From Ignavibacteria bacterium RIFOXYC2_FULL_35_21 (GTDB lineage Bacteria; Bacteroidota; Ignavibacteria; Kapaibacteriales; UBA2268): a stretch of 64,000 nucleotides of DNA. Below the pieces are notes generated by a model that made no database searches, was not told the DNA's origin, and saw only the letters and a program-made list of their open reading frames with translations. The translations under genes were made by a program, and so were the position numbers. Below, piece by piece: positions 2,754 to 37,338 of the stretch. Location of the stretch: contig MHAY01000037.1 in NCBI GenBank assembly GCA_001804705.1, forward strand, positions 1 to 64,000, in the 5' to 3' direction. Positions within the stretch are counted from its first letter, which is position 1, and the number at the start of each line of letters is the position of its first letter.

Positions 2754-2761
2754 TAATTTTG
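2754..2761 (+). promoter_or_regulatory. -7 element TAATTTTG upstream of tRNA pair
   Basis: TAATTTTG matches the Bacteroidota sigma -7 consensus TA-n2-TTTG and ends 10 nt before the mature 5' end of tRNA-Ala. No good TTG box is seen at the usual distance further upstream, so the assignment is tentative. Confidence 0.4.
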
Positions 2762-32767: not shown

Positions 32768-33424
32768 TTATCTCACATACACCATTCTTTTCGTCAATGC
32801 TCTGTCTCTTGCAATGAAGCGGAGCAGGTACATCCCGCTTGGCTCTAATGACAAATCAAACGAGAACTGAGACCAGCCCCCGACATTCTGCAAAGTCGAA
32901 ATGATTCTACCATCGAGACTGCAAAGCAAGACTGACTGAACATCAATCTCAGCTTTCTTTGTAATCAGGAGTGTACTGCCCATTTGTTGTGTGAAAAAAT
33001 AATTGTCTGCTTCTTCGTAGGTTGATGGTTCGTTGCCGTTCTGGGTGTAATCTTCAAGAACTGCCGATGCTATATTAGAATCAAAATAGAACTTACAAAT
33101 ATATTTATCTCCTTCAGGGTCATAAATATTAAATAGGAAATTTTTTGATTCCACTGAACCATTAACTAATTGAGATGTCATTTCACTATTCAAGTTTACT
33201 GATGATTTATCAATAATATTAAAACCAGAAAATATACCTTTGCATGTTTTAATTATACCTGCATCATATTTGTCATCATTATTCAAATCCATAATCCAGA
33301 TATTTGTAACATTCAAGCATGTGTCATTACAGTTTATGCATTTTATTGATACAGGTTTTTTTGAAAATAATTGTTCAATAGAAATAAATAATAAAAAAAC
33401 TATTATAAAAAATTTGAATCCCAT
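32768..33424 (-). CDS. secreted protein with T9SS-type tail, 218 aa
   Basis: No known domain. Signal peptide (FFIIVFLLFISIEQLFS) at the N-terminus, then CINCNDTCLNVTNI and a WIMDLNNDDKYDAG stretch that looks like a calcium-type acidic loop. The last ~70 residues (LLCSLDGRIISTL, then SGMYLLRFI) match the C-terminal sorting domain pattern, so surface export is likely. It follows the 706-aa secreted protein gene by 4 nt in the same operon. Confidence 0.7.
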   Translation of the reverse strand: MGFKFFIIVFLLFISIEQLFSKKPVSIKCINCNDTCLNVTNIWIMDLNNDDKYDAGIIKTCKGIFSGFNIIDKSSVNLNSEMTSQLVNGSVESKNFLFNIYDPEGDKYICKFYFDSNIASAVLEDYTQNGNEPSTYEEADNYFFTQQMGSTLLITKKAEIDVQSVLLCSLDGRIISTLQNVGGWSQFSFDLSLEPSGMYLLRFIARDRALTKRMVYVR

Positions 33425-33428
33425 AAAT

Positions 33429-35549
33429 TTAATCTATTTTGTTAATCTTTTTGTAAAATGTATTATTACCTGATTTTATTGCTAAAATATAGATTCCCGT
33501 TTTAATTTCATCTCTAATACCGACCGTAATTATATTTGTTGATTGGTCTAAATTTTCATAATTTTTCGAGAATATTTTTATCCCTAATATATCATATAAT
33601 TTAACATTCGCCAATGGAACTTTTAAATTTGTAAATTCAATATAAAATGAATTTGAAATGGGATTAGGATAAACAATTACCGAAGCATCTATATCACTCT
33701 TTTCTTCTATGTAATTATCAATAACATGGGTATAAATAAATTTATTATTAAAGTCAGAAATTTCATTGTTATTGACAGCTCTGATAAATATTCCATATTT
33801 ACTATAATTCAATAATCCTTTAAATAAATAACTGGTGTCCGTTGTACCTTTAACTGATACTATAGGTATATTCTCAGCGAATTTATTGTTATTATAAGTA
33901 ATAGCAAAGTCATAAGATTCAGCTTCTGAAACCGATGACCATTTTATCAAAATTTTATCATTATTATAGTATCCTTTTATTGTAGAATCAGGATATATGA
34001 ATTGAGGTATGTTTAATTTTCCTTTTTCAGTTCTGAAATAAGATTCACCATTAATACTTGTCATTGTTGAATTCCGGGATTTTCCAATAGCTGTATAATA
34101 ATAATATTTACTTAAATTAGTAATCAATATAGATGTATCTGTTACATTAGTTGATATGGCATTATGAATTCTTGGTTCAATTAAATTGTTATGATCCATA
34201 AAATCGCTAAATGATATGCCTGTTACTTCAATTTGATAAAATGTTGCTCCTTCAATTTTATTCCATGATATTATTATACTATCTGTTTTAAAAAAATTCT
34301 GTGCATTTTTTTCACCGGTTATAATAGGAAGAATTGGTTTTAATGTTTTATTTCCTGTATATTTAAAAATATTTATACCGAGTGTAAGCCCACCACCATC
34401 TGTCCTAATATATATTATATCTTTATCAATATATAAGGCTTTCAATGGTTTGTAAAAAAATAGACCATTTGTTTGAGTATGAAAATACTGTTCTTCCCAA
34501 GATATTCCTGCATTGGAAGTTTTAATAACGTAAAAATTTAAATCATCAGTAAAATTATTATAATAGCACAAAATAAAATTGTTTGTATCAAAACATTCAA
34601 AAAAGTAAAAGCCAAATTCATTTGTCTTTTTCCATACTGTATCAAAAGTATTACCACCATCAGTAGTTCTAATAATTTTTGTATAATCAGCCCAATCAGG
34701 GTATAAAGAATCTGAATAGATGAAGAATATTACTTTTTCATTAAGAATTTCTTTTATTGTAAATTTTTTATCTAATTTCAATTCATTACTAATCCAATTA
34801 ATACCTTGATTAGTTGAAAAATAAATATATTTATTTTGATTAATTTTATCTTTTACACTAAGTATTAATTTACCGTCATTTAAGAATTTAGCACTTGTAA
34901 TTATTAAAGAATCACCTAAGTAAATATTTTTGTATGTATTCCATCCGTCATTTGTATAAAGACATTCAGTCACTTCTTTTGTATTTGCATAGAGAGGATT
35001 GGATATGTTATCTAATATACAAACACCTCGGTTTTGGTCAGCCATAGAAATGTCAGGAATAACAGTATTAGAATCAAATTCAATTATCCTAAATGATAAT
35101 CCTCTATCGTCTGAGATTAATAATCTAGCATTATGCTTTTTGAAATACCTTTCTGAACCGTCAACATAATATATGAAATATTCTGCACTGTCTTCTGAGA
35201 TTACAATTTTATTTTCGGTTGGTGTGCATAGGGAATACCAATATATAGAACATTCGGTACAATCCTTATATCTTTCCATAGTCTCATTCCAAGAATTGCC
35301 CCCATCGGTTGAAAATCTCAGAAATAATTCTTCTTTACCTCTTATGAAATCTTTATCCAAATGTCCCCGTTGTTTTAAATTATAGTATATAATTTGATTG
35401 CTGTAATTTGAGAGTAAATCTGTACTCAAGTAATTTGAGAAATCTGACATATTCGATGAATCTACCAGAATCCATTCATCCGTGATTTGTGAAAAGTTAA
35501 CCGAAAAAGAAACGAAAGCTATTATAAAGATAAGAATAAACAATTTCAT
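33429..35549 (-). CDS. secreted beta-propeller-like protein with fibronectin-type domains and T9SS tail, 706 aa
   Basis: A signal peptide is followed by repeated BNR/sialidase-like strands with the S-x-D-x-G-x-x-W pattern (FSTDGGNSWNE, ISDDRGLSF, FSTNQGINW, TTDGGNTF, SNAGISWEE), suggesting a propeller. Two fibronectin-III-like modules follow (~430-510 and ~525-610; ISWNKIEGATFYQIEV, IKWSSVSEAESYDF), then a sorting domain (VIVYPNPISNSFYI, LYDILGIKIF, GIYILAI). Probably a surface-anchored or secreted binding protein or glycan-directed protein; catalytic sialidase residues are not evident. Confidence 0.75.
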   Translation of the reverse strand: MKLFILIFIIAFVSFSVNFSQITDEWILVDSSNMSDFSNYLSTDLLSNYSNQIIYYNLKQRGHLDKDFIRGKEELFLRFSTDGGNSWNETMERYKDCTECSIYWYSLCTPTENKIVISEDSAEYFIYYVDGSERYFKKHNARLLISDDRGLSFRIIEFDSNTVIPDISMADQNRGVCILDNISNPLYANTKEVTECLYTNDGWNTYKNIYLGDSLIITSAKFLNDGKLILSVKDKINQNKYIYFSTNQGINWISNELKLDKKFTIKEILNEKVIFFIYSDSLYPDWADYTKIIRTTDGGNTFDTVWKKTNEFGFYFFECFDTNNFILCYYNNFTDDLNFYVIKTSNAGISWEEQYFHTQTNGLFFYKPLKALYIDKDIIYIRTDGGGLTLGINIFKYTGNKTLKPILPIITGEKNAQNFFKTDSIIISWNKIEGATFYQIEVTGISFSDFMDHNNLIEPRIHNAISTNVTDTSILITNLSKYYYYTAIGKSRNSTMTSINGESYFRTEKGKLNIPQFIYPDSTIKGYYNNDKILIKWSSVSEAESYDFAITYNNNKFAENIPIVSVKGTTDTSYLFKGLLNYSKYGIFIRAVNNNEISDFNNKFIYTHVIDNYIEEKSDIDASVIVYPNPISNSFYIEFTNLKVPLANVKLYDILGIKIFSKNYENLDQSTNIITVGIRDEIKTGIYILAIKSGNNTFYKKINKID

Positions 35550-35594
35550 ATTATACCCCGCATAATTTTTAATAATAAATTTTTTATTAAAATA

Positions 35595-35631
35595 ATTTTA
35601 TCTCCTGCCTTTGACAGGCAGGAGATAAAAT
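35595..35631. repeat. 16-bp perfect palindrome between secreted-protein genes
   Basis: ATTTTATCTCCTGCCT-TTGAC-AGGCAGGAGATAAAAT: a 16-bp perfect stem with a 5-nt loop. The AT-rich outer arms mean that transcripts of either direction would end the hairpin in a U-rich stretch, so it can act as a bidirectional terminator for the minus-strand gene ending at 35810. The surrounding 260 nt (35550-35809) show nothing else. Confidence 0.65.
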
Positions 35632-35809
35632 TCAATACTCCTTATTTTAAATTGTCAAAATAATGTTACTGTTTATTAAACAAGTATGCTTATGACATTA
35701 TTCAAACTCTATCTTACAATATTTTTACCTTAGCAAAGGGCAATAAAACTAAAATAGTTTCAAATAATTTTACATTGAATTTGATAAACCATTTACAGAA
35801 TTTTACTCA

Positions 35810-36403
35810 TTAATTAATACAATCATAATAGCAGCCAGGGTCATTTGGATCACAGTTATCGGGTCCATAATGAGTTGAATATCTATAACGTATATCGTAA
35901 CCAATAAAATTACCCTGGCCATCAAATAATTTAGTAACTGTATAAGTTGCCTTGCAACAGCCAGTTCCATAGCAAGAAACCATGTTTGGAAGTGGATCAT
36001 TAGGATCGATTGGAATAGGTCCATCCCATTTCCAACAAGATGCCTTGAAAAATTCAACCGTTATAGATACATCTGGATCACACAAACCAATTTTTTGGCT
36101 TATAGTGCATTCAGTTAGATTAATTAGAATTTTTTCCATATCACAACTTGGAGTAAAATTACCTTCAAATGATATATTACTTACAATTCTAAATTGACAT
36201 ATACTAGGTTCTTCACATGTATTTTTTCTATATTCAAATTCGCAAGATGCGGTAAGTCCAGGGCACACTTCTGAACAACTAATTGTAAAAGGTCCATTCC
36301 ATTGTACTTCCGGGCAATCATCCGGGCAGTAAGTCACATGTTGTCCATTGGTAAAATAAAAAATAGAAATAAATACAAAAAAAATAATTATTAAATTCTT
36401 CAT
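35810..36403 (-). CDS. secreted cysteine-rich protein, 197 aa
   Basis: Not recognised. A signal peptide (LIIIFFVFISIFYFTNGQ) is followed by a mature part rich in cysteine, evenly spread (for example CPDDCPEVQW, CSEVCPGLTASC, SCYGTGCCKATY), with about 16 cysteines in 180 residues, which suggests many disulfides or a metal site. Repeated DPNDP turns occur (IDPNDPLP, CDPNDPGCYYDC). There is no sorting domain of the usual type at the end. Plausible surface-exposed or extracellular protein with no function to assign. Confidence 0.6.
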   Translation of the reverse strand: MKNLIIIFFVFISIFYFTNGQHVTYCPDDCPEVQWNGPFTISCSEVCPGLTASCEFEYRKNTCEEPSICQFRIVSNISFEGNFTPSCDMEKILINLTECTISQKIGLCDPDVSITVEFFKASCWKWDGPIPIDPNDPLPNMVSCYGTGCCKATYTVTKLFDGQGNFIGYDIRYRYSTHYGPDNCDPNDPGCYYDCIN

Positions 36404-36452
36404 TTAAACACCTTAAAATTAGTTATAAAAGAGTAAAATTAAAAAAATTGTT

Positions 36453-36460
36453 TAATTTTG
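36453..36460 (+). promoter_or_regulatory. possible -7 element TAATTTTG before candidate sRNA
   Basis: TAATTTTG ends immediately before the 5' arm of the candidate sRNA stem. No TTG box at the normal distance. In AT-rich DNA this motif occurs by chance, so support is modest. Confidence 0.25.
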
Positions 36461-36551
36461 CTCTTACATCCGCATTCCTTTTGGTTAAAGTTAAAGTATG
36501 CGGGTAAGAGACTCCGTGCTCAGCCGGTGGGAGAAATCCCACTGGTTTTTT
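36461..36551 (+). ncRNA. candidate structured small RNA with intrinsic terminator
   Basis: Two hairpins in a row. Stem 1 pairs CTCTTAC+CCGCAT (36461-36475, 2-nt bulge) with ATGCGG+GTAAGAG (36498-36510), 13 bp. After 13 nt, stem 2 pairs CCGGTGGG with CCCACTGG (36524-36531, 36538-36545; loop AGAAAT) and is followed by six T residues. Stem 2 contains one G-U pair that is only paired in the plus-strand RNA (A-C mismatch on minus), which favours a plus-strand transcript. It is not recognised as a known riboswitch class. Alternative: a repeat element, or a 5' leader of the minus-strand secreted protein. Confidence 0.45.
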
Positions 36552-36729
36552 ATATTAACTACAAATGCTCGTCTTATGACATGTTCCACTTCGCCTGCTG
36601 CTCTGAATTGTTTATCTCATAATCCTCCCTTTTTTCGTTAAAAAAATAAAGTTTTTTTTTAAATGGATGCACTCCTATATATATAACAATTTAAAAAGCA
36701 AAAAAGGGACACAAATTAATTTTTCTTTT

Positions 36730-37338
36730 TTAAATTTTTATTTTTATTAACTCTTCGGGGGGGGGAAGTCCCAGCAATAATGCTTTAGCATATTCTTTTG
36801 CTTCTTTAAATCTTCTTTGAATTGTCTTTTTGCTTACTTTGAATCCATCGGCAATCTCTTCTATTTTATAGTCCAGGCATCTCCATAATACCAGCTCGTA
36901 GAGTTCACGCGGCATGGCTTTCATCAATAATTCATATTCAAGTTCATTTTCTATGTATTCACAATCATCACCACCCATGATTGTATCAAATAAATCATTA
37001 GTGTTCTTTCCGGCATCTTCAGCAAGTTTATCAAGTGTAACAATCTTTTTGTTTCTTTTAATGTAGTTTTTGATATTGTTATTACAGGCTGTATAAAAGA
37101 ATCGCGAGAATTCGTCTTTTCAATATTTTTTTTCTGACACACTGTCTTTCATTAATATTTTTAAACTTGCCCGTAAACATAAATTATCTATAACACCATC
37201 ATATACATTAGAATATCTTTCCACCAACTTACTTACTGTTTCTTCAAAAATGCCTGGAGATAAAAACCAGATAAATGATGATTCCTGGTAATGGTGTGGT
37301 TGGCTTTTAAATTCTAATGTAGATTTATTTTTCATCAT
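36730..37338 (-). pseudogene. sigma-70-like (ECF-type) factor gene interrupted by one in-frame TGA
   Basis: Read through the TGA at 37120-37122 (codon 73), the 203-codon frame gives a sigma-like protein: an N-terminal region 2-like part (PGIFEETVSKLVERYSNVYDG... ILMKDSVSEKKY), then KDEFSRFFYTACNNNIKNYIK, a linker, and a C-terminal region 4-like helix-turn-helix (ELYELVLWRCLDYKIEEIA, VSKKTIQRRFKEAKEY). The reading frame does not shift, so a single base change (for example TGG to TGA) would restore it. The first 72 codons and the last ~82 (from an ATG at 36978) could each be translated alone, but there is no ribosome site before the second. Standard-code TGA is used as a stop elsewhere in the window. 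Confidence 0.7.

Follow-up and report, generated by a model that had tools for sequence, protein, structure and literature searches.

What is encoded at positions 36453-36551 of the window, the 64,000-nucleotide stretch of DNA from Ignavibacteria bacterium RIFOXYC2_FULL_35_21 analysed here? The initial annotation described two consecutive hairpins ending in a T-run behind an upstream sequence box, and read them either as a plus-strand small RNA or as a leader hairpin of the secreted-protein gene on the opposite strand. The element is present as described, box included. It opens at 36453-36460 (plus strand) with TAATTTTG, a putative promoter box of the Bacteroidota -7 type (TAnnTTTG). The same letters recur at 2754-2761 (plus strand), 11 nt ahead of a tRNA-Ala gene in the window, which supports the view that TAnnTTTG serves as this genome's -7 element. 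The small RNA occupies 36461-36551 (plus strand), with its 5' end expected a few nucleotides past 36460; its length of about 85-90 nt is read from the distance between box and terminator. Hairpin 1 lies at 36468-36505 (stem 36468-36474/36499-36505), and the intrinsic terminator at 36522-36551 consists of a 10-bp stem (36522-36531/36538-36547) and a T-run (T6 at 36546-36551). Both hairpins of the initial annotation therefore stand, but a short covarying hairpin between them had been overlooked. This hairpin 2, at 36508-36521, is a small middle stem of the form GAG(AC)...(GT)CTC. In the window copy, hairpin 1 can be extended to 36461-36510 through outer pairs 36461-36465/36506-36510, and the GAG of hairpin 2 is also part of that outer stem.

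A pattern scan identified 36522-36551 as the only plus-strand terminator within 2.2 kb. The plus-strand element folds at -36.7 kcal/mol (z -3.8), and 1 of 200 shuffles folds equally well. The minus strand is also a good folder (z -3.3), so a single copy leaves the strand unsettled. Hairpins followed by a terminator are what an ordinary terminator, or the riboswitch-type leader of a plus-strand gene, would look like, but we regard this explanation as extremely improbable. The plus strand is free of genes for about 1 kb, as originally noted, with no start among the window ORFs before 37597, and no plus-strand gene consistently follows the terminator in the other copies. With no co-directional gene directly downstream, a riboswitch or attenuator is excluded for most copies by context. 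The initial annotation had placed the element outside the riboswitch classes that it could recognise; correspondingly, no Rfam 15 family reached its gathering score, and relaxing the threshold brought up noise alone (E 1.2 or worse), so that no known RNA family fits.

The first reading overlooked the multicopy nature of the element. Seven copies, 77-100% identical, came up in a DNA search of the same genome. The first covariance model (CM), built from ten copies, recovered 13 copies in this genome; three congeneric genomes gave 1, 4 and 1, and a single genome from a second genus gave 5. These counts exclude four weak matches, in G003, G046, G064 and G099, that were judged to be generic terminators. 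A model built from 24 copies added one further copy, in G003; across the rest of the order, with 123 genomes searched in total, it gave no convincing match. The strong copies number 25, with 13 from this genome and 12 from four relatives, and TAnnTTTG is exact in 23 of the 25. Inspection of the regions ahead of third-gene paralogues and next to a poly-C tract revealed five more, diverged copies: L089 and L108 in G000, L091 in G001, and L094 and L095 in G002. Counting L108, this genome holds at least 14; a CM match at L097 (E 0.05) was left out of the count. The whole set of 25 strong and about five diverged copies is found in five related genomes, and among the 123 genomes of the order the family is restricted to one genus and one related genus. 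It is a previously undescribed family of small RNAs of about 90 nucleotides without an Rfam listing.

The copies allow fold and strand to be assessed together. Alignment A6 is a sequence-based alignment of 24 distinct copies, and the three-stem structure assigned to it was chosen after viewing these sequences. This structure has 92.3% of its cells paired, with pairing falling to 33-41% when partners are slid. Double changes occur in 12 pairs and amount to 36 cells against 8.8 in shuffles, and none of 500 shuffles reached the observed value on any measure; the copies are related, so the shuffles overstate independence, a reservation that does not affect the direction of the strand bias. The middle stem exchanges G-C for C-G in five copies and for A-U in four, and these swaps occur even where they break the outer extension of hairpin 1. 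That extension (36461-36465/36506-36510) is unsupported across copies (11 A-C, 9 other mismatches and 2 G-U) and probably sits partly ahead of the RNA 5' end. Over the inner part of hairpin 1, hairpin 2 and the terminator, G-U pairs number 49 and A-C pairs 4; in the terminator alone the counts are 25 and 0. Since an A-C on the plus strand is a G-U on the minus strand, this bias identifies the functional RNA as the plus-strand one. A fourth hairpin, in the leader, has no strand preference. The initial annotation had favoured the plus strand from a G-U pair and had suggested a covariance search for compensatory changes; the copies bear out the strand and supply the changes. Covariation and G-U bias together support a structured plus-strand small RNA with a terminator, and on this evidence the RNA is very probably real.

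The two readings of the initial annotation are not exclusive: the plus-strand RNA stands, and the region is probably an antisense leader as well. It could be argued that the fold of the minus-strand operon leader is what matters, as an attenuator or a protein-binding leader, and that the terminator-like look of the plus strand is incidental. The element does probably lie within the leader, after a leader ORF, and the minus strand folds too. The G-U excess counts against this proposal, which we consider very unlikely; a T-run follows the hairpin on the plus strand alone, and TAnnTTTG keeps a fixed plus-strand place.

Beside the RNA in the window is an operon on the minus strand. Its first gene (35810-36403) encodes a secreted protein of 197 aa with 17 cysteines and no Pfam family, the G001 orthologue of which is 78% identical over 196 aa. 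The second (33429-35549) encodes a 706-aa protein with a type IX secretion sorting domain (PF18962, E 1.4e-09). The third (32768-33424) encodes a 218-aa protein whose match to the type IX sorting domain is weak and below cut-off (PF18962, E 8.4e-04); paralogues of this protein occur in several RNA-tagged operons. A long perfect inverted repeat, ATTTTATCTCCTGCC...GGCAGGAGATAAAAT, is present between genes one and two at 35594-35632. Upstream of the operon is a sigma-factor-like/HTH gene (36730-37338, minus strand) that is split into three frames in this assembly, its last piece matching PF07638 at E 0.001, below cut-off. A whole homologue of this split gene, with a similar poly-C end and a weak Pfam match, lies beside another RNA copy at L108.

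The same geometry is seen throughout the family: in each of the 25 strong copies, 36-62 nt separate the box from a start codon on the other strand, from which the RNA points away. Most first genes encode a signal peptide and 3-10% cysteine; those of L031 and L053, which are related to each other, have neither a signal peptide nor cysteine richness, and those of L030, L031, L038 and L049 are interrupted in the assemblies. The first genes form several mutually unrelated groups, beside all of which the RNA is still recognisable. Later operon genes often carry type IX sorting domains. Each genome has at least 150 such domains, so the RNA-tagged secreted proteins are a minority. At about ten loci a regulator gene lies upstream and is directed towards the operon: an AraC-type regulator at L030, L045, L046, L048 and L051, a response regulator at L037, L043 and L050, an ECF sigma factor at L047, and the sigma-like regulator in the window, whole at L108. 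The other loci have no such neighbour.

RNA and cargo have separate histories. The first protein of the window shares 78% identity with its G001 orthologue, but the RNAs beside these two genes share 62%. By contrast, six paralogues within the same genome match the window RNA at 79-86% identity. The same decoupling is seen for two further pairs with orthologous cargo. This genome has seven copies that resemble one another at 77-94% and group together in a tree (94/88), while RNAs beside orthologous cargo in sister species are 60-68% alike to those seven. At L042, L052 and L091, in three congeneric species, different cassettes lie next to the same asparaginyl-tRNA synthetase gene (92-97% identical). 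These patterns point to gene conversion or module exchange. Such exchange could mean that the element acts at the DNA level, as a dispersed repeat or recombination boundary for swapping secreted-protein cassettes, with an RNA of little function of its own. The varied cassettes beside the synthetase gene and the decoupled histories fit this idea, as do L045 and L052, where the RNAs are 87% alike and the cargo is unrelated. We nonetheless think it quite unlikely: compensatory changes and the plus-strand G-U bias require selection on RNA. The fixed start-codon spacing is unlike mobile-element insertion and, with the RNA-type covariation, argues against a mobile repeat, and phage and plasmid collections held no match to the element.

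We then considered the operon strand. A GGAGG-type ribosome-binding site lies past the terminator in nearly all copies, and in most it is accompanied by an ATG and a leader ORF of 2-32 codons that ends near the terminator. In the window, the Shine-Dalgarno sequence GGGAGGA and ATG AGA TAA (36612-36629, minus strand) form a minimal leader ORF within the predicted long operon leader. The leader peptides are unconserved in sequence, variable in length and polar, which speaks against a type I toxin. The leader segments of L046 and L108 are near-identical, though the adjoining RNAs differ, and both keep the ribosome-binding site and are missing the ATG.

Two kinds of putative operon promoter were found. 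At seven loci (L030, L045, L046, L048, L051, L094 and L095), TTGA(C/T)-N18-20-TAnnTT on the operon strand is preceded, near -240 and thus some 240 nt upstream of the RNA, by 11-13 nt direct repeats in tandem. The repeat sequence differs from locus to locus, and we infer an activator-dependent promoter with locus-specific activator sites. An upstream promoter is convincing solely at these loci, and the window copy is not among them. A leader that starts at a distal promoter would carry the small RNA's complement in full. A mirror image of the RNA's own box, TAATTTTA at 36434-36441 (minus strand), could serve the operon as a proximal -7 box. In 11 of 25 copies the operon strand carries the box letter for letter within the short stretch ahead of the gene. 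Within loci, box and mirror box match at 180 of 200 letters against a permuted mean of 168, with none of 10,000 permutations as high. The mirror box may be a proximal operon promoter, and an operon mRNA starting there would not overlap the RNA. Together, proximal and distal promoters would give two kinds of operon mRNA, of which the long one alone would be an antisense target.

What, then, might the RNA do? We favour, at slightly better than even confidence, a cis-antisense regulator of mostly secreted-protein operons that resembles DonS of Bacteroides. Structure, strand, multicopy nature, geometry and leader ORF signals come from the sequence; to these the model adds promoter activity, a long leader, pairing and repression as inferred steps. 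A regulator-controlled operon promoter would lie roughly 180-230 nt beyond the RNA gene, and the long leader made from it would cross the RNA gene from end to end in antisense. Transcribed from a TAnnTTTG promoter of its own, the small RNA would pair with this leader between the leader ORF and the ribosome-binding site of the first gene, and would silence leaky operon transcripts by a translation block or by decay. When a regulator or a slip in a poly-C tract activates the upstream promoter, convergent transcription and excess leader would overcome the RNA. That the RNA is kept beside first genes that are mostly unrelated points to the shared leader, not the coding sequence, as the target. The repeat-preceded promoters of seven loci and the regulator genes just upstream of about ten also speak for this model. 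Three observations weigh against cis control: the proximal box, where present, could be the main start of a non-overlapping mRNA; a distal promoter is convincing at the direct-repeat loci but not in the window copy; and pure cis-antisense pairing needs no similarity among the seven same-genome paralogues.

Because the RNA evolves independently of its cargo, there is room for a trans-acting role. Paralogous small RNAs could each be co-expressed with the adjoining operon from the divergent promoter pair and target mRNAs elsewhere, including those of other tagged operons, perhaps with an RRM protein, for which the FopS family is a precedent (PMC11697453). The similarity of the seven copies within the genome, set against that of RNAs beside orthologous cargo, would then reflect concerted evolution. 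RRM_1 proteins are encoded in four of the five genomes, at two to three per genome of the genus, and Hfq in none of the five. We nevertheless judge this role unlikely, if well ahead of the explanations set aside above. The RNAs lack a conserved unpaired 5' seed and the hairpin-1 loop is variable. At the cognate loci, to which the pairing analysis was confined, trans pairing with the neighbouring translation start, the leader ORF start, the leader or the first 150 nt of the gene was no better for cognate partners (permutation P 0.14 to 1.0). In G015, a genome that is 76% complete and has five RNA copies, the search gave no RRM protein. Cis-antisense control remains our preferred reading over trans action.

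The poly-C tracts bear on how operons might escape repression. In the window, a tract of nine (36757-36765, minus strand) lies in the end of the broken sigma-like ORF. The 4.15 Mb genome has 8 distinct C/G runs of at least nine, and four of them (window, L028, L040 and L108) lie at most 400 nt upstream of an RNA copy where 0.011 would be expected, a rough Poisson P of 6e-10 that was calculated after the pattern was seen. A fifth lies upstream of the response-regulator gene of L050, and the remaining three are in or near other secreted-protein genes. The orthologous locus in G001 also has a tract, and the poly-C loci as a whole are 36757-36765, L028, L040, L050, L091 and L106-L109. In Bordetella, poly-C promoters of the fim surface-protein genes undergo phase variation by slipped-strand mispairing. 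Here too, rare poly-C tracts lie in the promoter region ahead of surface-protein genes, limited to some copies; the window tract differs in its position within the terminal part of the broken sigma-like ORF. The distribution suggests the tracts as candidates for phase variation of the secretome. A broader scheme, which we hold to be improbable, is that paralogous antisense RNAs kept alike by concerted evolution silence the leaders of their own and sister operons, with poly-C slippage and dedicated regulators picking the operon that escapes; this would amount to a genome-wide module for a phase-variable, possibly mutually exclusive, diversifying secretome.

Several known systems are comparable. 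CopA, which acts with the tap leader peptide, and Sok are antisense RNAs of plasmid copy-number control and type I toxin-antitoxin systems, respectively. They are alike in being short structured antisense RNAs opposite a small-ORF leader ahead of a main gene; here, however, there is no plasmid replication gene, and the leader peptides are not hydrophobic toxins. The DonS RNAs of Bacteroides (78-128 nt) are divergent to, and repress, susC operons of polysaccharide utilization loci (PMC7366714). The present RNAs are of the same length class and are likewise divergent to the operon's first gene. They differ in lineage, in having one common covarying three-hairpin fold, and in that repression is predicted; the DonS target is a susC homologue, whereas the operons here encode secreted cysteine-rich and type IX-sorted proteins, their first genes being mostly for small secreted proteins and that of the window having no Pfam match. 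DonS overlaps its operon leader in antisense; here the distal promoters at seven loci would produce such overlap, and the proximal box is present too. The FopS paralogues, 14 in B. thetaiotaomicron, have a Bacteroidota-type promoter, the partner RbpB, and a common 5' seed complementary to susC starts; they lie in varied genomic contexts (PMC11697453). The family described here is likewise multicopy, with Bacteroidota-type promoters predicted from sequence, and the RRM_1 proteins could be similar partners in all genomes except G015. No such seed was seen: a hairpin begins at the 5' end, and the neighbouring starts gave no pairing signal. Every copy, moreover, keeps its place next to an operon, mostly one for secreted proteins.

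The RNA family is real and new, its general kind is known, and its arrangement is unusual. The literature searched held no small-RNA work on this uncultured bacterial group, to which an unlisted and strongly covarying RNA family is now added. RNA control of the DonS and FopS kind, so far tied to glycan uptake in Bacteroides, would gain a link to secreted proteins beyond Bacteroides within the wider group. Taken together, the RNA, the leader ORF, activators specific to each locus and the poly-C tracts offer a testable model for the switching of a large and fast-changing secretome.
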